This document shows positions 28,679-50,408 of a DNA stretch of 64,000 bases, in pieces (within the stretch, counting starts at the first letter, position 1; every line of letters begins with the position of its first letter). The notes below the pieces were generated by a model. That model saw only the letters and a list, made by a program, of their open reading frames with translations. It was not told the origin of the DNA and did not search any database. This DNA is from an uncultured Dokdonia sp. GTDB lineage: Bacteria > Bacteroidota > Bacteroidia > Flavobacteriales > Flavobacteriaceae. The DNA lies in NCBI RefSeq assembly GCF_947492535.1, contig NZ_CANLNH010000005.1, positions 62,001 to 126,000 on the forward strand, written 5' to 3'. The position numbers and the translations under genes were made by a program.

Positions 28679-29266
28679 TTAAGAGTCGGCAAGCTGTATT
28701 AACGTTTCATAAACTTTATGAGTAGGTAATCCCATCACATTAAAATAGGATCCTTCTAATCGAGTTACTGCAATATATCCAAACCATTCTTGTATACCAT
28801 AACCACCCGCTTTGTCATACGGTTGGTAGTTATCTATATAATGATTGATCTCTTCTTCTGTAAGTGTTTTAAAAGTGACCTTTGTCGTATCGTTAATGGT
28901 AACCTGTTTATTTGGAGAAGTAAAACAAACACTTGTCATTACTTCATGCGTATTCCCAGAAAGACTTGAAATCATCTCAAATGCTTGATCTCTATTTTCA
29001 GGCTTGTTAAGTGCTTTATCTTGATGCCACACAATAGTATCACTGGTAATAAGAATGTCATTTTCTTGTAAATCAGTAAATGCAGCAGCTTTTAATTGTG
29101 CAAGGTAATCTGTAATTTCAGTTCCTTTATAATGTTCTGGAAAGATTTCATCAATAGGCTTGAGTAGGATGGTAAAATCTAAATCAAGTTCTTTGAAAAA
29201 AAGTTGTCTGCGAGGAGAACCAGAAGCAAGGATGATGTTTTTGTGCTGTAATCGTTTAGATAGCAT
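28679..29266 (-). CDS. maf: Maf-family nucleotide pyrophosphatase
   Basis: 195 residues from the ATG at 29266 (a TTG six bases earlier is possible). The N-terminal motif LASGSPRRQLF, the SDTIVWHQDKALNKP region with its catalytic Asp, and the YDKAGGYGIQEW segment are standard Maf signatures. Maf proteins hydrolyse non-canonical nucleoside triphosphates or dTTP/UTP to monophosphates and are linked to septation. The gene overlaps the end of the UbiA gene by 11 bp, indicating coupling. The exact nucleotide specificity is not determined here. Confidence 0.95.
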   Translation of the reverse strand: MLSKRLQHKNIILASGSPRRQLFFKELDLDFTILLKPIDEIFPEHYKGTEITDYLAQLKAAAFTDLQENDILITSDTIVWHQDKALNKPENRDQAFEMISSLSGNTHEVMTSVCFTSPNKQVTINDTTKVTFKTLTEEEINHYIDNYQPYDKAGGYGIQEWFGYIAVTRLEGSYFNVMGLPTHKVYETLIQLADS

Positions 29267-30176
29267 CTGCAATAGTCTGTGATATTAATGGAATCGTTAG
29301 GATACCTATAAACATGATTACTTTTAAGATAAGTGAAAGTCTTGTGAAATGACTTTTTTTATCATCTTCCCATAATCGTGTAGCTACATATCCTAGAGGC
29401 GCAATAACTCCAAAAAACAGTACAGCAACTGTTAGTTTATGGTCGTATAGAAAAGTAAATGTATACCAAGATATAAGCGTAAGTGTGATAAGGCATAAAA
29501 TAGAGGCGATACGAGCAGTTCTTTGTGCACCTAAAATAATAGGCAATGTACGATACCTAGCCACATGATCCCCTTGAATGTCTTCTATATCTTTAACAAT
29601 TTCTCGAATAAGGTTAATTAAAAAAGCAGCTATTGAAATATTCAAAATAATATCTAAAAGAAAAGCTTTTAATTCATTATCATAATAACCATCGATAGAA
29701 AATAATTCAAATATGCCTACAATCATTATGGATAAGGCCACTGTAAGGCTCACCAAAAGATTACCTACAAATGCTATTTTTCTTAGAAACCTAGAATACA
29801 AATAAAGTAAGAAAGCAATTCCTGGAAAAATCAAGAAATATAAAGGTTCTTTTAATACTGCGGTAATCACAAACCCAAAACCAACTCCAACATAAGTGAA
29901 TATATAATAAAAGAATTTTGCACGTCTAGGATCTATAGAAACACCTATAATTCTTTTTTTAGGTTTGTTAATCTTGTCAGCAGTAACATCTATTATATCA
30001 TTAATAATATATCCACCAGCAGCTATAAATACAGTAGCTATTACAAGAAACGTAAAGCCTAACGAACTTAAGGATAGTTCAATGTCAAAAGGTTTGAAAA
30101 ATCCAAACATAATAATGCATTGCATCACAATCACCATGATTAAGTTAGGAAATCGAATGAGACGTAAATAGTTCAC
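29256..30176 (-). CDS. Geranylgeranylglycerol-phosphate geranylgeranyltransferase-like UbiA prenyltransferase
   Basis: 306 residues with about eight or nine membrane helices. The prenyl-diphosphate binding motif NDIIDVTADKINKPKKRI lies near residues 60-80 and a second Asp-rich motif (REIVKDIEDIQGDHVARYRTLP) near 190-215, both typical of UbiA enzymes. In Bacteroidetes this member is annotated as a geranylgeranylglycerol-phosphate transferase; the natural product here is unverified. The start is a GTG. A 12-kb block of unrelated genes begins about 100 bp upstream of it. Confidence 0.85.
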   Translation of the reverse strand: MNYLRLIRFPNLIMVIVMQCIIMFGFFKPFDIELSLSSLGFTFLVIATVFIAAGGYIINDIIDVTADKINKPKKRIIGVSIDPRRAKFFYYIFTYVGVGFGFVITAVLKEPLYFLIFPGIAFLLYLYSRFLRKIAFVGNLLVSLTVALSIMIVGIFELFSIDGYYDNELKAFLLDIILNISIAAFLINLIREIVKDIEDIQGDHVARYRTLPIILGAQRTARIASILCLITLTLISWYTFTFLYDHKLTVAVLFFGVIAPLGYVATRLWEDDKKSHFTRLSLILKVIMFIGILTIPLISQTIADAI

Positions 30177-30274
30177 TTTAGTTTGTTCTGTGTGGTGTAT
30201 TTAGAACAAAATACTATAAATTAATTAGAGTATAAAAGAAACTAATAATTTTTAACTACTATTTGTATGCGTAA

Positions 30275-31993
30275 TTAATTTTCATGTTGCAAAGAATCTT
30301 TTACAACTTCTTTAATCTCAGTAATAATAGAGTCTGTTTTTGTTTCTACGGTTTCTTGTATGGTGTTTTGAGTAGCTTCTATAATTGTTGTAAGATCTCT
30401 AGCCCCTTCGATGTCTATTTCGTTTCTAGAAGGATATAAATCTTCATCAGTAAGTCCTTCAGAAGTTTTCCAAGTCTCTCCTAATTGCTCAAGAATGGTA
30501 CTTTCCCATTGTGATGGATGTTTAGCATCTACCCAGATCACATCTTTATATTCTACATCAATAAGTGCAAGATCTGGTGTTGCAGCACCATCAAATTTCT
30601 TACTATCATCACGTTTTGCAGCAATAGTACTTATCATAAACATACGCTTACGACCGCCTACTTCTTTAATAAAAGGTCTAAATTCTACAGGTTTATTGAC
30701 AGACCAATCATACTCCTTACGAGATTCAACTACTTTTAATGGCATTGCTGAAACTCCAGCCAGTCCTTCTTTTTTAGCAGCATGGTCGTAGTAATATAAT
30801 TTATCTGTACCATCACCAGGAATAAGAACACTAAATGATAAGCTCGTACGCTCTTCACCTATAGGCTCTAACCCAAACCAATGATATAAACCACTATACG
30901 CTTGTGTCTCGATACCACTCCAGTTAAAATCAGTGACAAATGGTTGCTGATTTTCATCATCTTCTAGGTCTGGAATTTTTACTGCTGTTTCCATATTCCA
31001 TGGTAACGGATCTGTAAAGCCTCCTAAAAATTGGAGTGACTTTGCTTGTAGTCTAGAAACTTCTTCACTTAGTGTATTTTGCTTCGTTAAAAAGGGATAA
31101 TCCTGCGTTTTGGATGGAGGAACATAGGTTCCTTTTCCAATCGTAACGCGTTCTAGGTAATCAGCAACAGAGTGTTCTCCAGATTCAATAATCATAACAC
31201 CACCATAGGACGGATATGGAAAAAAGAATCCTTTCCACTTAATTAAGTTAACTACCTGTACCCATTTCCCATCGTCATTTTTCATATAATATACCTGACT
31301 AGGTTCAAGTGTAAATAGTTGGAAAAAATTAAAACGTTGCACAACTGCATTATAGGTATTCCTACTAAACGCGAGAGATTCCCCTATAGCAAATGTAACA
31401 GGCACTCTATTTTCATTAGCAAAACGAGGAAAAGGAGAAGTGCTTTCTACGGTAAAAAGCTCTTCGGTATTGTTACTCATACGTTGAAACGAATACTCTT
31501 TTGATGGCTGTACCGCCATGGTCCATTGATTGACAGTATCAATACGTACCAATTGTGGAGGCGATACTTCTAGTGTTTCTCCAATAGATTCATATGCCAT
31601 GGTTACAATATTATTGTACGGCTGGATACGTTCATTTTGCGTTAATGGAAGTTCGTGTATTTCGACAAGATTTAGATTGTTGTATACATTATACGTTTGC
31701 ATATATTGATACAATCCTGTTTTCCATCCTGCGAACCATAAAACCCCAAAAAAAGCAGCAATCCCCACTAGGTATAAAATACGCTTTCCTATTTGTGCGC
31801 TTGCGCGAAATTTTCTCAACATAAACCACAAGAACAAACTACTGATCAGTATGATAAAAATATACTTACGTACAAACAATAATGCAGGCTGATAGTCATC
31901 TCGTAAGAAGAATAATAACAAGATCAGCACAATCGCACTGATTACGACAATACGTTTTTGTTTTCCGCCTTTTTTCCAATAGGATTTTATCAT
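30275..31993 (-). CDS. Large membrane-anchored hypothetical protein (last gene of the 12-kb unit)
   Basis: 572 residues. Three N-terminal membrane helices (about 16-30, 40-57 and 70-87) are followed by a 480-residue soluble region with no motif I recognise. Some segments look like a beta-rich domain (WVQVVNLIKWKGFFFPYPSYGGVMII; LSFSVLIPGDGTDKLYYYDHA). The last 30 residues are acidic/charged helix. It is the last gene of the operon that starts with the coiled-coil protein at 41117, and is separated from the 85-residue gene by a spacer carrying the palindrome at 32037-32060. The role is unknown. Confidence 0.6.
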   Translation of the reverse strand: MIKSYWKKGGKQKRIVVISAIVLILLLFFLRDDYQPALLFVRKYIFIILISSLFLWFMLRKFRASAQIGKRILYLVGIAAFFGVLWFAGWKTGLYQYMQTYNVYNNLNLVEIHELPLTQNERIQPYNNIVTMAYESIGETLEVSPPQLVRIDTVNQWTMAVQPSKEYSFQRMSNNTEELFTVESTSPFPRFANENRVPVTFAIGESLAFSRNTYNAVVQRFNFFQLFTLEPSQVYYMKNDDGKWVQVVNLIKWKGFFFPYPSYGGVMIIESGEHSVADYLERVTIGKGTYVPPSKTQDYPFLTKQNTLSEEVSRLQAKSLQFLGGFTDPLPWNMETAVKIPDLEDDENQQPFVTDFNWSGIETQAYSGLYHWFGLEPIGEERTSLSFSVLIPGDGTDKLYYYDHAAKKEGLAGVSAMPLKVVESRKEYDWSVNKPVEFRPFIKEVGGRKRMFMISTIAAKRDDSKKFDGAATPDLALIDVEYKDVIWVDAKHPSQWESTILEQLGETWKTSEGLTDEDLYPSRNEIDIEGARDLTTIIEATQNTIQETVETKTDSIITEIKEVVKDSLQHEN

Positions 31994-32036
31994 GGGTTGT
32001 TTGTTTTGATTGGTTGTTAGTTTTTAATTCTTCAAT

Positions 32037-32060
32037 TATACGCTTTCGCGAAAGCGTATA
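32037..32060. repeat. Palindrome copy, full 24-bp form, intergenic
   Basis: CGCTTTCGCGAAAGCG (32041-32056) extended on both sides to a perfect palindrome with TATA flanks. It lies in the spacer between two operon genes. No terminator-like T run follows it. Confidence 0.9.
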
Positions 32061-32065
32061 CTTAT

Positions 32066-32323
32066 TTATGATACTCCGTCAAATATACCAGCTATAAATT
32101 CTCCTACGCCTTCTAATATACTTCCAAATACTTCTCCAAAATCTAACCAAGAAGCATCAATGTCTATGTCAGGAATAGATAACCAATCTACCGATGTAAT
32201 AGCCGAAGCGGTAGAGGTTGTGATACCTCCTAATATTTCAGTTTTCATGGCTATATAATCGCAAACCTCTCCAGTAGCTGCATGATATGCATCAAAATCT
32301 GAATGAGAAGAAAACGTACACAT
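32066..32323 (-). CDS. Small hypothetical protein (85 residues)
   Basis: 85 residues, acidic, with Trp/Ile-rich short repeats (SVDWLSIPDIDIDASWLDFGEVFGS) and a hydrophobic C-terminal helix (ILEGVGEFIAGIFDGVS). I recognise no family. It could bind a membrane or a partner through its amphipathic end. It is in the unit with the AAA+ gene, 41 bp after the 49-residue ORF. Whether it is expressed is unproven. Confidence 0.5.
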   Translation of the reverse strand: MCTFSSHSDFDAYHAATGEVCDYIAMKTEILGGITTSTASAITSVDWLSIPDIDIDASWLDFGEVFGSILEGVGEFIAGIFDGVS

Positions 32324-32363
32324 AGCCCAGCAATGCCAATCTATACCACTCGATTCATAATAC

Positions 32364-32513
32364 TTAGATTGCTTTTGAAGCTTTTTTCACCTCTTCAGGT
32401 TTATAATACTTCTTTTTTCCATGTTCCTTAACTAATATACTACCTATTTCAGAAATATATTCTTTTTTATTTATAGGTGCTGATGGACAGTTTTTACTCA
32501 TACTTTCTTTCAT
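32364..32513 (-). CDS. Small hypothetical lysine-rich protein (49 residues)
   Basis: Begins MKESMSKNCPSAPINKKEYI and ends EEVKKASKAI. Start at the ATG at 32513, stop TAA at 32364-32366. Basic, soluble and helical by composition. It lies directly between two operon genes on the same strand, which supports its being real, but no homologue is recognised. It is too short for most automatic callers. Confidence 0.5.
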   Translation of the reverse strand: MKESMSKNCPSAPINKKEYISEIGSILVKEHGKKKYYKPEEVKKASKAI

Positions 32514-32771
32514 ACCCACCCTTTAAGTATCATTCAGGATACACTCTGGTGGGTATCTTATCATTATTAATTCTACTCTTTCTTAATACGCTTTCGCGAA
32601 AGCGTAGTTATTCTCTTTTAAAATAAAGTAATACGCTATTTTAAGTCTATGTTCTATTCTCTATATTCTTTTGCTTCCAGTATTCGGTAATTTCGATATT
32701 ATTTTCGCGAAAAGCGAAAATCACTCAATCACCTTACTTTATTTTTTACTTCAACAATCTCCAATCGTTAA
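32514..32771. repeat. Operon spacer with composite repeats
   Basis: This spacer, between the 175-residue gene and the 49-residue ORF, contains in order a GGGTATCTTAT module (32546-32556), the palindrome CGCTTTCGCGAAAGCG (32589-32604), a diverged AAAATAAAGTA...CGCTATTTTA hairpin (32619-32643) and the block CGGTAATTTCGATATTATTT (32685-32704) ending CACTCAATC. The same modules in the same order, without the palindrome, recur at 36030-36166 after the AAA+ gene. Confidence 0.65.
32589..32604. repeat. Palindrome copy, intergenic
   Basis: CGCTTTCGCGAAAGCG, flanked by TA on both sides to make a perfect 20-bp palindrome. In the operon spacer after the 175-residue gene. Confidence 0.9.
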
Positions 32772-33299
32772 TCACTTAATCATTCCTTTATCTTTAAAAC
32801 GATCTCTAGCGCTTTTTTTCTTAGGAGCTTCTTCTGTAGGTGTTTCCTTGGTTTCTGGAGTTGGCTGTTCTTTTGCGTCAAAATGCTCTTTTACATCTTC
32901 TGCAAACTCTTGAACTGCTTCTTTTCCTTTGTCAAATACTTTCTCAAGATTTTCTTTTTTACTACTATCACGTGCAAATAAAAATGCCGAAGCGATATAC
33001 GTTCCAATCATAACGCCAACAATAGCCGATACAAAATACTGTACAAAAAATGCATTGATGGGGGTAACAAAACGCACAATAATAGCGCTTATGACAAATA
33101 GTAATGTGACATATACAAGCCGCATTAAAAACGGTTGTAGATATAAAAAACCTTTACGATTATCGGGTTTCATTTGGAGTTCATCATTATGTGTAAGCTT
33201 ATTGATGAAACGATACACCGCATTACTTTTAGACTCTCTCCAATAGAGCACAATGCCTAAAAGAATAGCAAGAACGAATATGATGATTTCTAGTGTCAT
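32772..33299 (-). CDS. Hypothetical membrane protein (175 residues)
   Basis: An N-terminal helix (1-18), two further membrane helices (about 62-80 and 87-107) and a long charged cytoplasmic tail rich in Lys, Glu and Pro (KEQPTPETKETPTEEAPKKK). No recognised motif. The tail may contact other operon products. It belongs to the 12-kb unit, between the 412-residue gene and two small ORFs. Confidence 0.6.
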   Translation of the reverse strand: MTLEIIIFVLAILLGIVLYWRESKSNAVYRFINKLTHNDELQMKPDNRKGFLYLQPFLMRLVYVTLLFVISAIIVRFVTPINAFFVQYFVSAIVGVMIGTYIASAFLFARDSSKKENLEKVFDKGKEAVQEFAEDVKEHFDAKEQPTPETKETPTEEAPKKKSARDRFKDKGMIK

Positions 33300-33412
33300 G
33301 GTTATATGGTGTCTTTAGTTATATGTAGCGTTTATGCAGGTTATGTTACAATAGTATGATTCATATTAGGAGTGCTAAAAGCGATGTTTCAAACATAAAT
33401 GTTTATGAGTGA

Positions 33413-33482
33413 CACACCCCTTAATCCCCTCTTCCTAGAGGGGAAACTCTTCTTTTTATATCCGCGAAGGCGGATATCTTAT
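33413..33482. repeat. Operon spacer repeat copy 1: two hairpins
   Basis: A 70-bp block: hairpin 1 CCCCTC-TTCCTA-GAGGGG, then AAACTCTTCTTTT, then hairpin 2 ATCCGC-GAAG-GCGGAT, then ATCTTA. A near-identical copy is at 35932-36000 and a diverged copy of hairpin 2 is at 34771-34797. All lie in spacers of the same operon. Confidence 0.75.
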
Positions 33483-33524
33483 TATATATTCTCTTCTCTC
33501 TGTTCTCTTTTCTCTTCTCTATTA

Positions 33525-34763
33525 TCATTCATTCTCCTCTAAAATCAACGTAATCACCCAATCTTGATACGTTTCTGGCCATGTTTGATACGTATCATAA
33601 AACTGTGCTTTGTCATACCAATATAAGTGCAACGGATCATTGGGTTGGATTTTAATAAGGAGCTTCCAAATTAAATCAGCTTGCTCTTCCTCCAGTGATG
33701 AATGTGGTTGATGCAATGCTTTGTAATACGCAGTATCAATATAATCTTCCTGTTTTATTTCTTTATTAATGATACTTTTCTGGAAGAATAACTCGACACC
33801 ATTCAGTTGTTTTTGTATGTCTATGTCAAGACCCGTAATGTATTTTTTAAATAAAAAATGACTGTCTAGAATTTCAATAAAAGAATGTGTTACCTCCTTA
33901 GAATGTTCTACAAATCGATGTTTTTTAATACGGTCAAAACGTTTTGACTTTGATGCTTTTTTAAGATCACCGTCTATGATAAAATCGTTCACCAATTTAT
34001 CAATAAGCTCATCATGATCTTTATGAAATAAAGCCACCTCATGTCCTGTATCTGCAATCGCTTTATCAAATACCGCTTTGTCTTCAAAGATCATAATGTC
34101 ATTAATAAAATCTTTTAAGACAAACACACCACCAAAAGCTCTCGTATAGAACGAACTCACTTTAAGCGGTAGTGGATCAATATTCAATTTACGATGGCGT
34201 AAATCTCCATATTCTTTAGCGTTCTCGATGATCTTTTTATGAAGCTCACGATTGATAAAATTGTTTCCTTCCTGAAATTCCTTAATCAATTCGTTTTGCT
34301 CTGCTTGTTTTTGATCTAACTGATTAAGAATTTCAAAGGTAACGGTAATGGTATCGTATCGTAATAAGTCAAACGGTTCATAAAAGGCATCAATCTGCTG
34401 ATCAATATGAACACAAATAGCTGAGTCTTTAGTAATATCTCGTATGATTCTGCTATTGGCAGCAAAAACGGCTTCCATCAAATCCCGATCAAAACTATGA
34501 CTAGGCATTTGTACAGGTTTATACCGTTGTTCTGGCGAAATAATAATCGCATTCGTGTTTGCTTCTCCAATGTTGAGGTAATAATTTTCTTTTTTCTCGA
34601 GCGCAATTTCGGGACTCCACCCCATAGCATCTATCGCAAAGCTAGTTAATGCAGTGGGTGCAACACCTAACATCGCAAGACACTCGTTATAACGCTGTGC
34701 TAACGATCCTGATACAGGCACCAACGCACCTCCATATAACCCTGCTTCTTTTAATTTTTTCAT
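33525..34763 (-). CDS. Unrecognised 412-residue protein of the 12-kb unit (perhaps DUF6638)
   Basis: A soluble protein that starts MKKLKEAGLYGGALVPVSGS and contains AIDAMGWSPEIALEKKENYYL and ANTNAIIISPEQRY; the C-terminal half is helical. From memory it resembles the Bacteroidetes family DUF6638, but I cannot confirm this. No enzyme motif is visible. It lies immediately downstream of the inserted 331-residue gene, and the same-strand order suggests it works with the AAA+ ATPase and its partner. Confidence 0.6.
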   Translation of the reverse strand: MKKLKEAGLYGGALVPVSGSLAQRYNECLAMLGVAPTALTSFAIDAMGWSPEIALEKKENYYLNIGEANTNAIIISPEQRYKPVQMPSHSFDRDLMEAVFAANSRIIRDITKDSAICVHIDQQIDAFYEPFDLLRYDTITVTFEILNQLDQKQAEQNELIKEFQEGNNFINRELHKKIIENAKEYGDLRHRKLNIDPLPLKVSSFYTRAFGGVFVLKDFINDIMIFEDKAVFDKAIADTGHEVALFHKDHDELIDKLVNDFIIDGDLKKASKSKRFDRIKKHRFVEHSKEVTHSFIEILDSHFLFKKYITGLDIDIQKQLNGVELFFQKSIINKEIKQEDYIDTAYYKALHQPHSSLEEEQADLIWKLLIKIQPNDPLHLYWYDKAQFYDTYQTWPETYQDWVITLILEENE

Positions 34764-34770
34764 CTTTTAG

Positions 34771-34797
34771 TATCCACGAAGATGGGTGTCTGATTAT
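34771..34797. repeat. Diverged copy of the operon-spacer hairpin
   Basis: TATCCACGAAGATGGGTGTC, then TGATTAT, aligns with the second hairpin of the blocks at 33413 and 35932 (TATCCGCGAAGGCGGATATC, then TCATTAT) with several substitutions. It fills the short gap between the 412- and 331-residue genes. Confidence 0.5.
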
Positions 34798-34799
34798 TG

Positions 34800-35795
34800 T
34801 TAGTTTATAATATGATATACTAAGTCTAAGAATATAAATATTAAGAATATATCAGTAAATAGAAGTCCTATAATTGCTAGTATTGATTTATAAGTTTTAA
34901 CCTCATTAATCCCGACAGTAGTATTTGGATATTTCTCTCCGTGAAATTTTTCCCAAAAATCTTCAATTAGCATAGAACTAGGATTGTTTTTGTAAATTAA
35001 TTTATCAATATCTAAGTCTATTTTATCTTTGTTAGGGTATTGAGTACTATTAAAATAATTATCTACTAATAAATTATATTCTAATAAGTTTTTATTCTTC
35101 CATTTAATATCTTTAGCTAATGAAAATGGGAATAAAAAAACAATTATTGTGAAAATGATTATTAAAATAAGTATAATAATACTTAATATAATACTACCTA
35201 TAAGTTTTATTTCTTTAGGAATAAAACCACTTGTTTCTTTTTTGTTAGGTTTTGGAATTTGATTAGTAAATATAATATCACCGTCAATTATTTGTCTAAA
35301 ATTTGGCTGTGAAAATAATAATGTATCTGCTATATTTATACCTGTTTTAACATAAAAAGAATATTCTAAGATTTCATCAGGTCTCCATTGTTCAAATGCA
35401 ATTTTTACATTAGTGCTATCTACAATAAGATTATTATTAAAATCTGATATTACTTTTTTATAATCAAGAACAGTATAATTTTTTTTTAATAATAAAGTGA
35501 AGTCATCCATTAATATATTTTTTTGAGCTCCACGACCTATTACTGTTTTATCAGAATTATTTTTAAATTGAATACTGTATTTCCATAAATTTTGTATTTC
35601 TACTCCTTTATATCTATAATCTACTTTAAAATTTGGTTCACCATCTCCAGGAGTTTGTGTAAGACGTTCTACATTTTGGGTATTTACTACTATCTCTATA
35701 TTTTCATTATTTGGAAGAAAAATATAAACCACAGAAGCTATGGACGCTATTGAACCTATAATTCCAAACCATTTAAGTAAATTTTTATTATTCAT
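34800..35795 (-). CDS. Hypothetical membrane protein inserted in the operon (331 residues)
   Basis: One N-terminal helix (about 9-27), an extracytoplasmic domain (30-190) with PGDGEPNFKVDYRYKG and NSDKTVIGRG, then two or three helices (about 198-225 and 308-330). No family motif. Its codons are more AT-rich and Asn/Ile/Lys-rich than neighbouring operon genes, and repeat blocks border it on both sides. It may be a later insertion into the operon. Confidence 0.6.
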   Translation of the reverse strand: MNNKNLLKWFGIIGSIASIASVVYIFLPNNENIEIVVNTQNVERLTQTPGDGEPNFKVDYRYKGVEIQNLWKYSIQFKNNSDKTVIGRGAQKNILMDDFTLLLKKNYTVLDYKKVISDFNNNLIVDSTNVKIAFEQWRPDEILEYSFYVKTGINIADTLLFSQPNFRQIIDGDIIFTNQIPKPNKKETSGFIPKEIKLIGSIILSIIILILIIIFTIIVFLFPFSLAKDIKWKNKNLLEYNLLVDNYFNSTQYPNKDKIDLDIDKLIYKNNPSSMLIEDFWEKFHGEKYPNTTVGINEVKTYKSILAIIGLLFTDIFLIFIFLDLVYHIIN

Positions 35796-35876
35796 ATACT
35801 TTTTAAATCAGTTTTAAAGTCTCAAAATAATCAATTAGATACTGATTTAATAATCTAGTTGTTAGTTTGTTATTAA

Positions 35877-35890
35877 CTTTCGCGAAAGCG
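35877..35890. repeat. Palindrome copy (partial), intergenic
   Basis: CTTTCGCGAAAGCG: the left CG of the full 16-mer is replaced by AA. In the spacer between the AAA+ gene and the 331-residue gene. Confidence 0.75.
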
Positions 35891-35931
35891 TATTTAATAT
35901 ATTTCAAATTCAAAAGCTCACTCAGCTTTAA

Positions 35932-36000
35932 CACACCTCTTAATCCCCTCTTTCTAGAGGGGAAACTCTTCTTTTCATATCCGCGAAGGCGGATATCTCA
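35932..36000. repeat. Operon spacer repeat copy 2: two hairpins
   Basis: The second copy of the block at 33413: CCCCTC-TTTCTA-GAGGGG, AAACTCTTCTTTT, ATCCGC-GAAG-GCGGAT, then ATCTCA. Differences from copy 1 are few and mostly T/C changes. Confidence 0.75.
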
Positions 36001-36171
36001 TTATTATCATATGTCTGCCCTTCGACTATCTCTAAGGGTAAACTCTAGCGGGTATCTCATAATTCTTCTCCAATCATTCAAAATAGAGTAACGCTCTATT
36101 TTTATTTTCATAGTCGGTAATTTCGATACTATTTTCACGAAGGCGAAAAATCACTCAATCCCCTTGCTAGG
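36001..36171. repeat. Composite repeat downstream of the AAA+ gene
   Basis: This part of the spacer repeats the modules of 32514-32771 in the same order: GCGGGTATCTCATAATT, the perfect hairpin AAATAGAG-TAACG-CTCTATTT (36081-36101), and CGGTAATTTCGATACTATTT followed by a CACTCAATC tail (36115-36161). It directly follows the AAA+ stop codon. Confidence 0.65.
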
Positions 36172-38133
36172 TTATTCTCCACTTTCAAAACGACGTCTTG
36201 CTTCTAGTTGTACATTCATATCATGTATGCGTCCATCTACTTTACGTTTAAAATCAGTATCAGCAATAGTAGCGACATTATCTAAGTAACGCACTACTTC
36301 CTGACGACGAATATCTGAGAAGTTCAAGCCTTTCATATTTTGCTTCATCAAGTCTTGTAATAGCACGAGTTTGCTGTCATAGTCTTTTTTGAAATACGCC
36401 GATGGGTCTTCAAACCACTGTTCAGGTAAATCAAAATCGGTGAGACGTAATGAGATAGCACTTTGAATATTTCGAATATCTCGCGAAGAGAAAAACGGAA
36501 ATGCTTTTTGAATCTCTTTATATAACTCGGCAAAAAATAAGTGCTCTGTTTGTTTGTGTTTAGAAGCTACTTGCTCATATATTTCTAGGACTTTAGCTTC
36601 TGTAGGTTTCTCGCTTTGATTTAAGATTTCTCCTAAGTTTTTAGCAAGTCCTTGTTCGCTTAAGAATTCATATTTCTCTGGATTTGTCATATTGACAAAG
36701 TCAGGCATCGACTTTTCTAGTTTATTCCACCAGATGTAATCTTGATCTATAAAATCAGGGATGGTACGCGCACCATCTATTTTAAAACGTCCCTGAACAC
36801 GTGAGATCACCGCTTTATCCAACATTTCTGGAAGGTTGGTAAACAATCCAATAGAACTATTACCATAGTTAATCGCATAGGCTCCTTCTGTATATCGTAA
36901 GAAAACACCAATCACTTCTTTTACTCCCGCCGAAACTCCTTGTGCGGTACGCTCTTGTAAGTTGTTTTCTGCATCATCAATAGGAGCAAAGATCAACTTT
37001 GAAGGATCTTGCATGGGCTTCATCCATTGTACCATTTTTTCTGCCGATCCTCCTTGGAAGGTAGAGATCAGTGTGTCTGGCATGGGATGAAATAAAAATG
37101 GAATATCTAGATGGTCACAATGTTCTTTTAGTCGTGTAGCAATCGCAGCAATAAGCATTGATTTTCCAGTTCCTGGAATTCCATACCCCATAAAAACAGG
37201 CATAAAACCACCCAATTCTTGAAACGGGTTTTTCTTTGCTTCAAAATCATAACTCAGCATGCGCTCTGTCAATCGGCGTGCGAAATGCTTGGCATCACGG
37301 TTTCCTACAATTTCTTCAAATTGTATTTTATTAAACTCCACACTTACCGCCGTACCTTCAAATACGTTTTCCCAACCAGAAACGGCAAATTCGCTTTTTT
37401 CTAGTTTGTACGTTCTATCTGTAATGGTGTCTGTATATTCTAGCGAACCAATACGCTGTTGGATTTCGCTAATAATAGCTTCAAAAAAGACAACAGTAAA
37501 GTCTAAAACATCATCATCCGATTTTATAATGTCTGGATGACTTAAATATTTGTCATAGTAAAAAAGCATACAGGAAATTCCTTTCAGCGGACTCATAAAT
37601 GAGAGTTCAGGAATGCCTGCAAATTTGTTTTTCATGACACTCAAATCATCTGAAGCTGCTTCTTTAATATCAAATAAAATTCGATATGCTGTACCATACA
37701 ACATAAAAGCGGTAGCCGTATGCATTTTTGATTCGTACTCACGTCTTCCGCTAGTATCTAATGTTGATTTACGTTCATTAAGAATCGATAATCCAGAGGC
37801 ATCAAAATAACTATCCTTCAGCCAAATCCCAGTCGTGATTCCTTCCTGTAATGCATATAATGCTTGATTTAAATGCAACGGAATGGCGACAGAGTCGGGG
37901 AGGAGTCTCTTTTTAAGAGCGAGTATCGTTTTAGATACTGACGTGACATCACTACCACCTCCGTTTGTCGCTTTAGAAAGGTATAATAAGATGGATTCGT
38001 CTTTTTGATTTTTATCACGGCGTTGTGCTTTGCTTCCTTGTTCCCATTGTACTCCTTTAAGATAAGAAGTCGCTTCATCACGTAAGGTGGCAAGTTCGCT
38101 TAATTTTATAGGGAAGGTTGTATTGTGTTCCAT
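36172..38133 (-). CDS. AAA+ ATPase of the 12-kb unit
   Basis: 653 residues. A 300-residue N-terminal region with no known motif precedes an AAA+ domain: Walker A GIPGTGKS (about 318-325), a Walker B-like LIFAPIDDAEN in which the usual Asp-Glu is Asp-Asp, a sensor region (YGNSSIGLFTNLPE) and the arginine-finger helix LDKAVISRVQGRF. A C-terminal helical region follows. Probably a ring ATPase that remodels a protein or membrane complex. It ends with only 3 bp between it and the upstream partner gene, so both are made together. Asp-Asp in Walker B may reduce hydrolysis or reflect a distinct subfamily. Confidence 0.85.
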   Translation of the reverse strand: MEHNTTFPIKLSELATLRDEATSYLKGVQWEQGSKAQRRDKNQKDESILLYLSKATNGGGSDVTSVSKTILALKKRLLPDSVAIPLHLNQALYALQEGITTGIWLKDSYFDASGLSILNERKSTLDTSGRREYESKMHTATAFMLYGTAYRILFDIKEAASDDLSVMKNKFAGIPELSFMSPLKGISCMLFYYDKYLSHPDIIKSDDDVLDFTVVFFEAIISEIQQRIGSLEYTDTITDRTYKLEKSEFAVSGWENVFEGTAVSVEFNKIQFEEIVGNRDAKHFARRLTERMLSYDFEAKKNPFQELGGFMPVFMGYGIPGTGKSMLIAAIATRLKEHCDHLDIPFLFHPMPDTLISTFQGGSAEKMVQWMKPMQDPSKLIFAPIDDAENNLQERTAQGVSAGVKEVIGVFLRYTEGAYAINYGNSSIGLFTNLPEMLDKAVISRVQGRFKIDGARTIPDFIDQDYIWWNKLEKSMPDFVNMTNPEKYEFLSEQGLAKNLGEILNQSEKPTEAKVLEIYEQVASKHKQTEHLFFAELYKEIQKAFPFFSSRDIRNIQSAISLRLTDFDLPEQWFEDPSAYFKKDYDSKLVLLQDLMKQNMKGLNFSDIRRQEVVRYLDNVATIADTDFKRKVDGRIHDMNVQLEARRRFESGE

Positions 38134-38136
38134 AAG

Positions 38137-39189
38137 TTATAGTTTAAGTGTTGCAATTTCGATAGGGTCTCTGGTGAGTCCGTAGACTTTATCAGGAATT
38201 TTATCGTAGAGTAATTGCATCACTCGGTGTGATGTAAATAAATAATTTTCAGGTCTTTTATTTTCCCAGACCTGAAGGTGTTGTTTGTTAAAAATGCTTC
38301 CTTCTAGAATACTATCTTTAGAAAATGTTTCATTGATAGTAATTGATACGGCATAGGCAGAAAGATCTAGACTTTTATCAACGATAGATTGTAAGATCGC
38401 ATGTGTCACTTGTAATTCATCTTTGGCAAATACACTATGGATCGGACCCAAATCTATTTTCTTTATTCTTTTAGGTAATAGATTTGGCAACTTTTTATCA
38501 ATCGCATAGGCCATACTATCTAAGGTGATACTACGATCTGCAGTGGCTTCCAGTACTTTGTAGATGTCTTCAATATACTCTTCCATATCTACTTTATGCA
38601 AATCGAAATACATAAAGCAAATAAAAGGTCTGTTGACACCTACATCATAAAATGCCCAGCTTACCATAAATTCTGTAGGTGCCGAAGGTGCCGTTTTAAT
38701 TACTTTTCCTTGTACAAAACGTTTGAATAAGTATTTACTTTCTACTGACGTATAATAGACAATAGAAGAGGCTTGGTGTAATTTCTTATCAGAAATAGGC
38801 TCTTTGTATTTTAGGAGTGTTTCTAGAAACTCATCCTTTAAAGTTTCTATCGCGGGAAGTTTTTGAATGTATTCATTTTTAAGCTCCATATCATTCACGA
38901 GATATCGAAACTCCGAATAATTTGGAAGTCCAGATTCAGTAAGATCTACTTTCATCTTTTCTTCGTCATCAAAGAGATATTTTACTCTAAAGGCTTCTAA
39001 AGTATAGGTGAGTAAATCACAATACTGCTTGATATAGGTAGTTTCAGAAGGCGTGCATAACTGTTCTTCTTTAAGTGCTTTGACAAGCTCCTCAAACGCG
39101 TGTTTGACAATTTTAAAATACACCTTGTATTGCTCCTTGTTTTCTAAAGTAGCACTATCTAATGGTGTTATGATTTCGTTTATGGGCAT
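38137..39189 (-). CDS. AAA+ partner protein, unrecognised (350 residues)
   Basis: A soluble alpha/beta protein that starts MPINEIITPLDSATLENKEQ. The middle has FMVSWAFYDVGVNRPFICFMYFDL and the C-terminus VWENKRPENYLFTSHRVMQLLYDKIPD. No motif I recognise. Its stop codon lies 3 bp before the AAA+ ATG, so the two are translationally linked and probably form a complex. It is a candidate substrate adaptor or regulator of the ATPase. Confidence 0.7.
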   Translation of the reverse strand: MPINEIITPLDSATLENKEQYKVYFKIVKHAFEELVKALKEEQLCTPSETTYIKQYCDLLTYTLEAFRVKYLFDDEEKMKVDLTESGLPNYSEFRYLVNDMELKNEYIQKLPAIETLKDEFLETLLKYKEPISDKKLHQASSIVYYTSVESKYLFKRFVQGKVIKTAPSAPTEFMVSWAFYDVGVNRPFICFMYFDLHKVDMEEYIEDIYKVLEATADRSITLDSMAYAIDKKLPNLLPKRIKKIDLGPIHSVFAKDELQVTHAILQSIVDKSLDLSAYAVSITINETFSKDSILEGSIFNKQHLQVWENKRPENYLFTSHRVMQLLYDKIPDKVYGLTRDPIEIATLKL

Positions 39190-39197
39190 TTAAGATA

Positions 39198-39617
39198 TTA
39201 CTTGTTATATAAATTTAAGATACTGTCTCTCATTTTGCGACCTTCTCTTTTGGATATAGGCTCTGTAATTAGAAGTTGAGAATTATTTGTGTTCTGCTCA
39301 TCATAACCTACATAATAATATGTTCCTTTCCTAAGGTCTACTTGGTCTATATACTTATTTTCTATTGTGCGTTTTTTTCTTTTCCATTCCCCTTCAATCA
39401 AATATTGGTACGTTATAGTGCTACTACTTTTTCTATATCCATCTGTTTTTTTTACTTGTAATATCCAACCTAATGTTTTTGTTTCATACTTTACAGGAAG
39501 ATCATAGACAGTTTCCTTTGGCATCTTGTATTTTTGATGATACATGATAAAAGCCCCAACTACAATAAATAAAATTACTTTGGTAACCTTAACTTTTGGA
39601 TCTTCATGAGTAGACAT
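39198..39617 (-). CDS. Small membrane-anchored hypothetical protein (139 residues)
   Basis: One N-terminal membrane helix (about 11-26) and a soluble beta-rich domain (YETKTLGWILQVKKTDGY; TYQYLIEGEWKRKKRTIENKY; KGTYYYVGYDEQN). No known family. It is 8 bp upstream of the AAA+ partner gene, in the same unit. The topology suggests the soluble part is on the outer face. Confidence 0.65.
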   Translation of the reverse strand: MSTHEDPKVKVTKVILFIVVGAFIMYHQKYKMPKETVYDLPVKYETKTLGWILQVKKTDGYRKSSSTITYQYLIEGEWKRKKRTIENKYIDQVDLRKGTYYYVGYDEQNTNNSQLLITEPISKREGRKMRDSILNLYNK

Positions 39618-39687
39618 GGTTTATTACTAGTATTCTTTTAAGTGAAAGTGAAATTTTAATAATTAAAAAACGTTCACCATATCTCAT

Positions 39688-39760
39688 ATTCCCCCTCTTG
39701 TTTGAAGGGGAAGTTTATAATGAGATTGTATAGGTGTTGTATATGCTTTCGCGAAAGCGT
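39688..39760. repeat. Spacer with a diverged CCCCTC hairpin and a palindrome copy
   Basis: CCCCCTC...GAAGGGGAAGTTT (39691-39716) resembles hairpin 1 of the operon repeats, and GCTTTCGCGAAAGCG (39745-39759) is a copy of the 16-bp palindrome lacking its first C. Both lie between the coiled-coil gene and the 139-residue gene. Confidence 0.6.
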
Positions 39761-39770
39761 ATTTATAAAA

Positions 39771-41117
39771 TTATCCTAAAAGATCATCATCTCCAGCATC
39801 ATCTTTCTTTTCTGGAGTAGGTTCACCGTCACCAGTAGGTGCATCGCCATCAGTTGCATAATATTCTTCAAAAATTTCTTTCATGTCAATTCCGTAACGG
39901 TTGGCAAAATCTTTCTGAATATTTGCATCTTTTTCACGAATTTCTTGCAATGACTCGGCATAACTGCTGTATACTCCTTGCATTACTTTTTCGTGTACTG
40001 GGATGTTGTCCATCATATCCTGACGTGCTTTAGAACTAGCAGTATGCATAGCCGCTAATGTCTGCCCAATATGCTCATCAGTCTTCACACCTAGGTGTTC
40101 TAAGATCGCAGCAAATTCCTGATCGGTACGTGCTTTTAAAGCAACCACATAACCATCATAATACTTTAAACGCTCATCAGTATCACTTTTTAGCTTTGCT
40201 CTGTGCGTTTGTAAATTACTACGTAACGAAGTCAATACTTTGATCGTTAAATTATGCTTGTGTACAAAGCTGTCTTTACTCGCAGCTAATGTCGTGTAGG
40301 CATTTTTAAGACCTTCTAGTTCTTCTACTTTCTGCTCTAAAATGGTGATTTTTGAAATTGCCTCAGAATAGTCAGTAGATTGCTTATCTGTAACTTCTTC
40401 CAATGCTTGACGTGCTTGTTTTAAAAGCGCATATTGCTCTTCAAGTTTATCTTCTGTTTCCTTTTTCTTTTCAAGCGCTTTGTTATGATTTTTACTTGCT
40501 TCAACAATCGCTACTTGTAGTTTGTCTTCTACCTCTTTGATTTCTACTTCACGATTTTTAAGACGCGTCACAGCTGCTTGCGACTTATACGAAAGCTCAT
40601 TTAAAAGAGTCTGTATATCTGCCGACTCAATACGCTCTTGAAACATTTGCTTTGCTTTTAAATCTGCACCATCACGTATTTTTTGCTTAGCGGCAAGTTC
40701 TTCTACTTTCTTTTGGATTTTTGCTTTACGCCCCCAAAGATTATTCCACCAGCTATCTTTTACATTTTGGGCATCTTCAAGTTCCATCTTTGCACGCTCT
40801 AAGGCTTTTTGAGCATCGTCTATTACTTTTTGCTCATTAGCATTTAGGGTAGAGAATTTCTCAAAGATAATCCCTACTTCGTCTTGATAATCGGTAAGGT
40901 CTTTGATTGCATCTAGTAGCGATGATCTGTCTTTTTCTGCCATTCCTACCACATCATCTAGTGTTGCGTTTAGGATTTTTTGGCGCATTTCAGGATCATC
41001 TTCCTGAGCAAGCTTGGATTTCATTGTATCTACAGCTTTTCCCCAGTTAACATCTACTTTTTCAGTTTTTTCTTGAGACGCGTCATTGGTTTCTAATAAG
41101 TCAAAATCATCAGACAT
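39771..41117 (-). CDS. Long coiled-coil protein, first gene of the 12-kb unit
   Basis: 448 residues, soluble, acidic, mostly coiled coil (about 90-350) with heptads rich in Glu, Lys, Ala and Leu, for example DKLEEQYALLKQARQALEEV. The N-terminus (MSDDFDLLETNDASQEKTEK) and the C-terminal tail (PTGDGEPTPEKKDDAGDDDL) are disordered and acidic. It resembles in plan, but not clearly in sequence, scaffolding coiled-coil proteins of the TelA type. As first gene it may scaffold the ATPase complex. The function is unknown. Confidence 0.7.
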   Translation of the reverse strand: MSDDFDLLETNDASQEKTEKVDVNWGKAVDTMKSKLAQEDDPEMRQKILNATLDDVVGMAEKDRSSLLDAIKDLTDYQDEVGIIFEKFSTLNANEQKVIDDAQKALERAKMELEDAQNVKDSWWNNLWGRKAKIQKKVEELAAKQKIRDGADLKAKQMFQERIESADIQTLLNELSYKSQAAVTRLKNREVEIKEVEDKLQVAIVEASKNHNKALEKKKETEDKLEEQYALLKQARQALEEVTDKQSTDYSEAISKITILEQKVEELEGLKNAYTTLAASKDSFVHKHNLTIKVLTSLRSNLQTHRAKLKSDTDERLKYYDGYVVALKARTDQEFAAILEHLGVKTDEHIGQTLAAMHTASSKARQDMMDNIPVHEKVMQGVYSSYAESLQEIREKDANIQKDFANRYGIDMKEIFEEYYATDGDAPTGDGEPTPEKKDDAGDDDLLG

Positions 41118-41338
41118 AGGTATGGATCGTTTTTAATGTTGTACGTAATTTAAATGGATGTTCAATTTCGGTAAAAAAATTGATTTAAGGAACTCCTTTT
41201 TCAAGAAGGTTATTATATCAGTCTCAAAAAGTGAAAAATGTTACACTATAGTAGTGATAGTAGTCAATTAGCGTCTTTTTTAAACATTAATAGGGAGCTG
41301 TATTACAGTGTTGGTAATTAAGGGGTTGTGGTTTTGTG

Positions 41339-41354
41339 CGCTTTCGCGAAAGCG
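41339..41354. repeat. Palindrome copy, intergenic
   Basis: CGCTTTCGCGAAAGCG in the 277-bp gap between the coiled-coil gene and the 154-residue gene. It is not followed by a T run in either direction. Confidence 0.9.
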
Positions 41355-41394
41355 GGATCAATACTATTTATAGATTATAATGTGTGTATCTACT

Positions 41395-41859
41395 TTATAA
41401 TCCTGTCTTTTTTATCCACTGATTTAAAGGAATAGGTATTGGTTTTTCATTGGTTGTATCCCACGTTGCCCATAACTGAATTAAATTTCCTGTCTCTAAA
41501 ATGATTTTTGAATCAGATATAACTCTTTTTTTAGTAAAATAGTCAGGAGGTTTCGATAGATTGCTTGCCCAATTCCATACATCATATTCTATATTGTCTT
41601 GCCAATTTGAAGCATAGACATCTTGACTAAATTGGCTTAAAAGCGCTATGATTAGTTGTTCTTTTTGAAGTGATGTATATGAATCAATAGCATTCGGATA
41701 ATGTAATAGTATTAATGCTTCTATAATTGCAATGCCTCTATCTCTTGCTAGTTTACTGTAGGTTTCTAATTCTTCATTAGTTAGATTTTGACCAGAAGTA
41801 AGGTAGTATATGATTTTTTTTAAATCACCCTGAATAATACTACTTGAAAATCCTTCCAT
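41395..41859 (-). CDS. Hypothetical protein (154 residues)
   Basis: A soluble helical protein beginning MEGFSSSIIQGDLKKIIYYL, with many Trp residues near the C-terminus (VWNWASNLSKPPDYF; LIQLWATWDT). The size and composition would fit an immunity-type protein, but no toxin gene is adjacent. It lies 15 bp downstream of the 108-residue gene. The function is unknown. Confidence 0.6.
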   Translation of the reverse strand: MEGFSSSIIQGDLKKIIYYLTSGQNLTNEELETYSKLARDRGIAIIEALILLHYPNAIDSYTSLQKEQLIIALLSQFSQDVYASNWQDNIEYDVWNWASNLSKPPDYFTKKRVISDSKIILETGNLIQLWATWDTTNEKPIPIPLNQWIKKTGL

Positions 41860-41874
41860 ACTTTAAGTGAAATA

Positions 41875-42201
41875 TTAACCGATATATGTCTGTATATATA
41901 CTAGAGCTGTCTGGAGTATAAGTATAGGGAACACTATGATGGACGTGTAATATTGATAATTTTTCTTTTCTTTATTTGAAATACTTAAAATTGTTAGTAT
42001 CATTCCTGTGATCAATGAAATGTTACTAATGGTTCCAAATATATTTAACATCAAAACGAGTATTTCTATTTCAATAGTAGTAGAAATACTAAGTAGTACA
42101 GCGGTACTGGCTATCCATAACAAAATACAGATGATACATAGAATAAAAGCCCATTTCTTATAATTTGTTTTCTTAGGACGATCAGTTTTTATGGTATCCA
42201 T
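41875..42201 (-). CDS. Hypothetical three-helix membrane protein (108 residues)
   Basis: A basic N-terminus (MDTIKTDRPKKTNYKK), then three hydrophobic segments (about 17-39, 44-69 and 82-104). No family recognised. It is 58 bp downstream of KdsC and forms a pair with the 154-residue gene. Confidence 0.6.
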   Translation of the reverse strand: MDTIKTDRPKKTNYKKWAFILCIICILLWIASTAVLLSISTTIEIEILVLMLNIFGTISNISLITGMILTILSISNKEKKNYQYYTSIIVFPILILQTALVYIQTYIG

Positions 42202-42259
42202 TTGATTTTGATGATTATAAATAGGTATGTTAAATATTTTTTTAATTAAAGGCTACCAG

Positions 42260-42787
42260 TTAATGACTCCCTGCATCAAACTCGCGCATCCATTTACCTT
42301 GTACTTTAAGTACTTGTTCAATAACATCACGTACACAGCCTTTTCCGCCATTTTTATGTGAGATGTATTTTGAAACTTCTTTAATTTCTTTAACGGCATC
42401 TTGCGGACAGGCAGGTAATCCCACCATTTTCATCACAGGATAATCAGGAATGTCGTCTCCCATGTATAGAATGTTTTCTGTTTGGATACCGTGTTCTTGT
42501 ATATATTCTGTAAGTTGATTCACCTTTTGATGCGCTCCCAAATAGACATTTTTAATACCTAATCCTTGTAAACGATGACGTACACCTTCATCGGTGCCGC
42601 CAGAAATGATACATACATTATAGCCTTCATTAAGCGCTGTTTTTAAGGCATATCCATCTTTTACATTCATCTCTCGATGCATTTGTCCGTCGGTAGTGAT
42701 CTTTAAGGTTCCGTCAGTAAGGACACCGTCTACGTCAAAAATAAAGGTGGTGATTTGGTGAAGGTATTCTTTATAACTCTTTTCCAT
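42260..42787 (-). CDS. kdsC: KDO 8-phosphate phosphatase (HAD superfamily)
   Basis: 175 residues, HAD type IIIA. Motif I is FIFDVDGVLTDG, motif II is the Ser of IISGG, and motif III/IV is MGDDIPDYPVM. Residues around LPACPQDA fit KdsC, which removes phosphate from KDO-8-P in lipopolysaccharide core synthesis. It overlaps the end of the DUF2520 gene by 17 bp, so the two are coupled. Confidence 0.92.
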   Translation of the reverse strand: MEKSYKEYLHQITTFIFDVDGVLTDGTLKITTDGQMHREMNVKDGYALKTALNEGYNVCIISGGTDEGVRHRLQGLGIKNVYLGAHQKVNQLTEYIQEHGIQTENILYMGDDIPDYPVMKMVGLPACPQDAVKEIKEVSKYISHKNGGKGCVRDVIEQVLKVQGKWMREFDAGSH

Positions 42788-50384: not shown

Positions 50385-50408
50385 TATACGCTTTCGCGAA
50401 AGCATATA
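50385..50408. repeat. Palindrome copy, near-full 24-bp form, intergenic
   Basis: CGCTTTCGCGAAAGC with TATA and ATATA flanks: one base (G to A) departs from the perfect 24-bp form. In the gap before the lipoprotein gene. Confidence 0.85.

Follow-up and report, generated by a model that had tools for sequence, protein, structure and literature searches.

A conserved and, as far as searched, undescribed gene set with an AAA ATPase and a coiled-coil protein in the KdsC–UbiA interval of Dokdonia

Introduction

What occupies the 12,083 bases that separate KdsC from UbiA in an uncultured Dokdonia sp. (assembly GCF_947492535.1), and do the genes in between belong together? The interval lies in a 64,000-nucleotide stretch of contig NZ_CANLNH010000005.1 (positions 62,001 to 126,000 of the forward strand), hereafter the window. 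An earlier reading of this DNA, made without database searches (the sequence-only reading), described DUF2520, KdsC, UbiA and Maf as neighbours in flavobacteria, and took the intervening 12 kb, a unit of mostly uncharacterised genes without a recognised function, as its main candidate for an undescribed system. The interval has the length it gave, and the genes it named are all present on the − strand, as is every gene-like open reading frame (ORF) of the interval. Six of the 11 ORFs form a linked gene set, the unit, in the order cc448 (a coiled-coil protein), g350, AAA653 (a classical AAA ATPase), g412 (a DUF6638 protein), g175 and g572 (both membrane proteins). The gene set exists and is conserved, and within the reach of the searches it is undescribed. 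The reading preferred here, at a probability of about 0.5, is that the unit would be a protein-remodelling machine, powered by its AAA ATPase and sited at the inner membrane, with cc448 as the protein acted on.

Conservation of the gene set in flavobacteria

A search for the AAA gene in 39 genomes gave 13 matches at E ≤ 0.001, 11 near full length and two weak and partial. Ten loci around the 11 matches were read, the window among them; eight hold all six genes in order, and in the other two a contig end truncates the set. A contig scan yielded 340 relatives, of which the closest 80 were kept, and the six genes are collinear in 73 of these best 80 of 340. The script recognised 72; the other is L039, where a spurious antisense ORF masks the last two genes of a complete set. 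In the remaining seven loci the contig ends before the set is complete, as in L058, where the contig start cuts the unit and two other ORFs stand upstream of g350. No counter-example to the order was found among these 80 loci. The flanks vary: the commonest flanking gene family is shared by 27 of the 80 loci, and KdsC or UbiA adjoins the unit in two. Other loci also hold extra ORFs of their own between the six genes, the commonest being a protein of ~196 residues between the AAA and DUF6638 genes (23 of 80 loci).

The sequence-only reading would have been undone by genes found singly and unlinked elsewhere, and these were not seen in the loci examined. That the genes are chance neighbours without a common function, as might be supposed from several single genes without an assigned function, is already refuted by the gene order, which persists through changing flanks in 73 of 80 loci and recurs in the six distant loci described below. 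What does not stand is the extent of the unit: the linked set with its AAA, coiled-coil and membrane proteins holds, and no describing paper was found, but it comprises six genes only, the other five ORFs being without a match in the 80 contig-scan and ten related loci.

Pairwise identities of the six proteins covary across 66 loci (r 0.75–0.94), as common ancestry alone would also produce. The slowest-changing proteins are cc448 (mean identity 84.5 %) and AAA653 (80.6 %), the other four lying at 54–71 %.

Insertion between KdsC and UbiA

Among 18 Dokdonia genomes a KdsC match at 1e-20 was obtained in 16, one of them only a 29 % paralogue, which leaves 15 with true KdsC (at least 68 % identity). 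In eight of these 15, UbiA begins at most about 100 bp from KdsC, in line with the adjacency stated in the sequence-only reading, and the gap is about 0.6–1.0 kb in two. The unit follows KdsC, between KdsC and UbiA, in four, and in one UbiA lies outside the 1.5 kb examined beside KdsC. One of the eight close-spaced genomes (G001) and one of the two with the 0.6–1.0 kb gap (G017) carry the unit at another site. The close spacing in eight of 15 genomes, together with the unit elsewhere in G001 and G017, marks the unit as a discrete insertion with a site that varies between strains, the occupied KdsC–UbiA interval being one such insertion. In the interval itself no insertion enzyme was noticed.

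Distribution and the core of four in distant replicons

The AAA profile is found in five of 395 genomes sampled from the phylum, all five in the same family, Flavobacteriaceae. Within that family it is found in 76 of 249 genomes (71 of 235 genera), and the unit is present in 9 of the 18 Dokdonia genomes. DUF6638 occurs in 4 of 296 genomes of the phylum and in none of 14 control genomes. Of 72,556 plasmid records, the AAA profile finds ten and DUF6638 the same ten: four from Sinorhizobium, four from Vibrio, and one each from Shinella and Rhizobium. The 50,697 phage records gave no AAA match beyond one weak partial, and one IMG/VR contig of 359 kb matches.

Profiles built from flavobacterial proteins only were run on the 563 ORFs of six distant loci, taken from five of the ten plasmid records (one Vibrio and four rhizobial replicons) and from the viral-classed contig. 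All six hold cc, g350, AAA and DUF6638 in the same order, so that this core of four extends across phyla. Expectation values range from 3e-77 to 2e-60 for AAA, from 3e-49 to 1e-22 for DUF6638 and from 2e-23 to 1.5e-13 for g350. The coiled-coil protein is matched at 1e-9 in the viral-classed contig, at 1e-8 in Vibrio and at 1e-5 in Rhizobium.

Neither g175 nor g572 has a match in the six distant loci (best E 0.24). In Sinorhizobium and Shinella a DUF2333 gene follows DUF6638, in the viral-classed contig one precedes cc, and on the Vibrio replicon DUF2333 lies about 350 kb from the core. DUF2333 (PF10095) was not found in any of five flavobacterial genomes searched. The pattern suggests that g175/g572 and DUF2333 are alternative membrane partners, not homologous by hhalign: homology of g572 to the DUF2333 family was considered and is not supported (0.5 %).

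Several features of the distant loci deserve mention. The AAA and DUF6638 genes of Sinorhizobium meliloti Ak57 are separated by an endonuclease-domain gene and an ISRm16 transposase (L111:13959-15704). Three records of about 0.9 Mb from Vibrio parahaemolyticus and V. vulnificus (L110; L205, NZ_CP062152.1; L206, NZ_CP015514.1), labelled plasmids, have near-identical gene order around the core and carry an mfd gene. The 359-kb contig, IMGVR_UViG_3300035698_035310, carries DUF2333, cc, g350, AAA and DUF6638 together with a ClpA-like protease ATPase (PHROG 4871); neighbouring ORFs resemble, by eye, SmpB, DnaJ, peptide deformylase and a spanin pair. The terminase profile PF03237 has no match in it and the PHROG matches of ten of its proteins are mostly of unknown function, for which reason the contig is called only ‘classed as viral by IMG/VR’. 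Searched against PHROGs, the unit proteins themselves gave AAA-level matches only.

Patchy presence, insertion between housekeeping genes, occurrence on a ~0.9-Mb Vibrio replicon, on rhizobial replicons and on a 359-kb viral-classed contig, variable small ORFs inserted in the unit and a weak AAA similarity to IetA would also suit a conflict system directed against phages or plasmids, in which the AAA protein senses or remodels a component of the invader and its partners act as effectors. This explanation is nevertheless considered unlikely. PADLOC-DB 2.0.0 gives no full system, returning weak AAA or coiled-coil similarity only (best E 1.4e-4, to an AAA domain), and the Pfam scans contain no nuclease, protease or other effector domain (flanks were clustered, not scanned for defence genes). 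In addition, cc and AAA are strongly conserved rather than diversifying.

The AAA ATPase

AAA653 belongs to Pfam AAA (PF00004; 37.2 bits against a cut-off of 21.2, E 4.7e-9). It contains a Walker A motif GIPGTGKS (K324), a Walker B pair D386-D387, sensor-1 N433, arginines R445/R449 and a segment F359-Q-G, which we take to be the pore loop from its position in the classical AAA pattern, as known from Vps4-type ATPases. All 86 relatives (80 flavobacterial and six distant) retain K324, S/T325, F/Y359-Q-G, D386-D387, N433, R445 and R449, the pore-loop aromatic being F in the 80 and Y in the six. Walker B is usually D-E in classical AAA proteins; the D-D found in 86 of 86 is a variant within the family, with the Pfam score standing, and is the diagnostic oddity of this AAA.

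When distant homologues are included in the alignment, 151 PDB sequences match at 0.01; among the best 60 of these 151, VCP/Cdc48 comes first (2.9e-10), followed by proteasomal ATPases and Vps4/SKD1. The flavobacterial alignment alone has no PDB match at 0.01. Nothing in Pfam matched the ~300-residue N-terminal part or the C-terminal part of AAA653.

The partner proteins

The DUF6638 protein g412 is a member of PF20343 (97.9 bits, cut-off 27), which amends the earlier description of the genes as without recognised function: this one belongs to a named family. Its model is confident (mean predicted local distance difference test score (pLDDT) 90.3, predicted template modelling score (pTM) 0.86) and Foldseek returns nothing at E ≤ 0.001 (best PDB E 2.7, best BFVD E 0.68), so the fold appears to be one with no PDB counterpart within reach of Foldseek. 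Profile searches of PDB with cc, g572, DUF6638 and DUF2333 gave nothing convincing. Those with g350 matched 6nyr (1.3e-4) and 6tug (0.0028) over 60–70 residues; no stretch passes on its own for 6nyr, and the matches are taken as chance.

A dedicated AAA chaperone of MoxR-like type that assembles one complex, in which g350 and DUF6638 act as assembly factors and cc448 provides a scaffold rather than a substrate, would account for the constant partner set, the neighbouring membrane proteins and a DUF6638 protein predicted to fold as a discrete unit. The usual partner of MoxR is a vWA domain, and none appears in the Pfam scans of ten window ORFs or of ten Vibrio and Sinorhizobium proteins; moreover AAA653 matches classical AAAs, not MoxR. 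Such a chaperone is judged about as doubtful as the conflict system.

No transmembrane segment is predicted in cc448, g350, AAA653 or the DUF6638 protein; g175 and g572 have hydrophobic segments. The AlphaFold2 model of cc448 has a mean pLDDT of 65.5 and long helices of up to 81 residues (168–241, 248–328). Near the N-terminus of cc the motif DFDLLE is kept in 71 of 74 homologues, and DDLL(G/S) closes the protein in 66 of 74; the C-terminal peptide of g175 is SARxRxKDKG in 66 of 73. The conserved tails of both proteins sit behind variable linkers and, as a guess, resemble docking peptides.

Homology of cc448 to PspA or TelA was tested with hhalign, using a PspA alignment of 29 sequences and TelA as one sequence, and rejected: each scores 0.1 %, a value inside the spread of 150 decoys (up to 1.6 %). 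The PspA_IM30 profile has no match in this genome at a threshold of 0.001, and the TelA profile is absent from 38 of 39 relatives, this genome included. A TelA/Ter-type stress system might be suspected, TelA being likewise a coiled-coil protein beneath the membrane. The hhalign value, the absence of the profile from nearly all relatives and Pfam scans without TelA make it the least probable of the known systems weighed here.

In Dokdonia (n=18) PspA is found in seven genomes and the unit in nine, with both in none and neither in two. In the 249 family genomes PspA gave 25 matches at 0.001, 20 over the cut-off and 19 at E ≤ 6e-39; these 19 strong matches and the 76 genomes with the unit coincide in one (G607), against 5.8 expected (hypergeometric 0.007, uncorrected for kinship). 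This rarity of co-occurrence is also what a true PspA/ESCRT-III plus Vps4 family member would be expected to display, and it would moreover bring a classical AAA, a coiled coil and membrane proteins together; CdvC is the best NCBIfam model. Yet the CdvC score (NF041006) is 21.8 bits against a cut-off of 650, cc fares no better than decoys against the PspA profile, neither Snf7 nor PspA is matched in Pfam, and G607 has both, so that the exclusion may be a clade effect. True membership is accordingly rated very improbable, marginally above TelA/Ter. The exclusion was likewise rejected as proof that the unit substitutes for PspA, given the genome with both and the uncontrolled phylogeny. The apparent avoidance between unit and PspA may serve as a lead only, since relatedness is uncorrected.

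Proposed function

The words ‘membrane- or protein-remodelling machine’, used in the sequence-only reading, are suggested by the AAA motifs and the membrane partners. In the mechanism favoured here AAA653 would be the motor, its classical AAA domain forming a ring that pulls a substrate through the pore, as the invariant Walker, pore-loop and arginine-finger residues suggest. The most likely substrate would be cc448, which may form assemblies of itself that AAA653 dismantles or remodels. Since every one of the six distant loci scanned has g350 and the DUF6638 protein alongside the motor, these two are probably dedicated partners, either adaptors or regulators. Lineage-specific membrane proteins may tether the machine, g175 and g572 in Flavobacteriaceae and DUF2333 elsewhere. 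The purpose might be envelope maintenance or stress protection, which is a guess.

Several points weigh against this remodelling machine. The activity, membrane role and biological purpose of the unit are deduced from sequence, and the membrane location comes only from g175/g572 and DUF2333, as the other four proteins have no transmembrane segment. The D-D Walker B of AAA653 may mean slow hydrolysis. The cc448 model, a poor one, has no Foldseek match at E ≤ 0.001, and the 50 of 600 matches considered are generic coiled coils, with neither PspA nor ESCRT-III among them. The cc similarity is weak in three rhizobial proteins from Sinorhizobium and Shinella (E 0.002–0.006, hhalign 67 %). The patchy presence (nine of the 18 Dokdonia genomes and 76 of the 249 family genomes) implies that the unit is dispensable. 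Finally, a single transcript finds no support in gap lengths or promoter motifs: the cc–g350 gap is at most 50 bp in only 4 of 66 loci and the flavobacterial promoter motif is not enriched upstream of the six genes; sigma-70-like sites number 66 against 64.8 expected.

A broader version of the proposed machine can be put forward only tentatively, and is thought rather less likely to be correct than not. It would be an undescribed ATP-driven membrane-remodelling system, in which a D-D Walker B AAA acts on its own polymer-forming coiled-coil family, aided by g350 and DUF6638, two families for which no relatives are known. It would be spread among Bacteroidota, Alpha- and Gammaproteobacteria and large mobile replicons or phages, with its membrane anchor swapped (g175/g572 or DUF2333), and would stand in for PspA where PspA is missing.

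Layout of the interval and accessory ORFs

Coordinates of the unit, the accessory ORFs and the two host genes are collected in Table 1. The gap between g350 and AAA653 is 3 bp. No ORF of the 80 and ten related loci matches the 139-, 331-, 85-, 154- or 108-residue ORF in BLASTP (E 1e-3), and four of these five are poor in GC (0.23–0.31, against 0.34–0.38 for the six unit genes).

Table 1. Features of the KdsC–UbiA interval, in window positions
Feature	Position	Strand	Basis
cc448, coiled-coil protein, 448 residues, core gene 1	39771..41117	−	ORF; homologues in related loci
g350, 350 residues, core gene 2, no Pfam family	38137..39189	−	homologues in Vibrio, rhizobia and the viral-classed contig
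AAA653, classical AAA ATPase, core gene 3	36172..38133	−	Pfam AAA match; motifs
g412, 412 residues, DUF6638 (PF20343) protein, core gene 4	33525..34763	−	Pfam match
g175, 175-residue membrane protein, flavobacterial core gene 5	32772..33299	−	hydrophobic segments; conserved C-terminal peptide
g572, 572-residue membrane protein, flavobacterial core gene 6	30275..31993	−	N-terminal hydrophobic segments
331-residue membrane ORF, accessory	34800..35795	−	GC 0.23
139-residue anchored ORF, accessory	39198..39617	−	GC 0.30
85-residue ORF, accessory or not a gene	32066..32323	−	ORF list
154-residue ORF, accessory, near KdsC	41395..41859	−	GC 0.31
108-residue membrane ORF, accessory, near KdsC	41875..42201	−	GC 0.29
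KdsC, host gene at one side of the insertion	42260..42787	−	name from the sequence-only reading, not from a family scan
UbiA, host gene at the other side of the insertion	29256..30176	−	name from the sequence-only reading, not from a family scan

The spaces between the six genes are occupied by short repeats that are dispersed. Repeat copies are located at 33412-33485 and 35931-36004, and at 32681-32738 and 36111-36168; the palindrome TACGCTTTCGCGAAAGCGTA occurs at 32039, 32587 and 39742, and also at 50387, 55496 and 58993. The stretch 33400-33500 has 28 matches in its own genome at E ≤ 0.001. Such repeats may be the entry points of the accessory ORFs.

Significance and comparison with known systems

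Should the proposed machine be real, it would be a further bacterial AAA-plus-coiled-coil membrane machine, with parts unrelated to PspA/ESCRT-III, present in about 30 % of the Flavobacteriaceae sampled (76 of 249), as well as in distant hosts and on large replicons. It would supply a function for DUF6638 and possibly for DUF2333, and its four core genes would offer compact sets for biochemistry. A literature search with subscription papers outside its scope yielded no description of this gene set; DUF6638, PF20343 and PF10095 appear in no paper that it covered, and DUF2333 in one.

The DUF6638 family (PF20343), of which g412 and the Vibrio, rhizobial and viral-contig proteins are members, has no assigned function and no solved relative by profile, and the family description, as far as it was examined, does not include the constant partners. 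With VCP/Cdc48, the proteasomal ATPases and Vps4/SKD1, AAA653 shares Walker A, the sensor-1 N, the arginine fingers and the aromatic pore loop, but it differs in its D-D Walker B (D-E there) and its unmatched N- and C-terminal parts. To the IetAS anti-phage system (PADLOC) AAA653 is weakly similar (19.4 bits), but the Pfam scan of the unit contains no protease or other IetS-like partner.

According to passages of one paper, DUF2333 adjoins the hcp gene of a type VI secretion system (PMC5256989). Ter/TelA occur in jumbo phages, as parts of another source describe (PMC7824862). The likeness, as far as those parts go, is a coiled-coil protein thought to lie beneath the membrane and found also in large phages (PMC7824862), but the unit has no TelA homology and its Pfam scans contain no other Ter family. 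PspA/Snf7 neighbourhoods hold classical AAA ATPases, as stated in portions of a further paper (PMC11237479). The phage shock protein (PspA) systems and the archaeal Cdv/ESCRT systems resemble the unit, as portrayed in those portions (PMC11237479), in joining a coiled coil, a classical AAA and membrane partners in one neighbourhood; they differ in that cc448 shows no detectable homology to PspA and AAA653 scores far under the CdvC cut-off.

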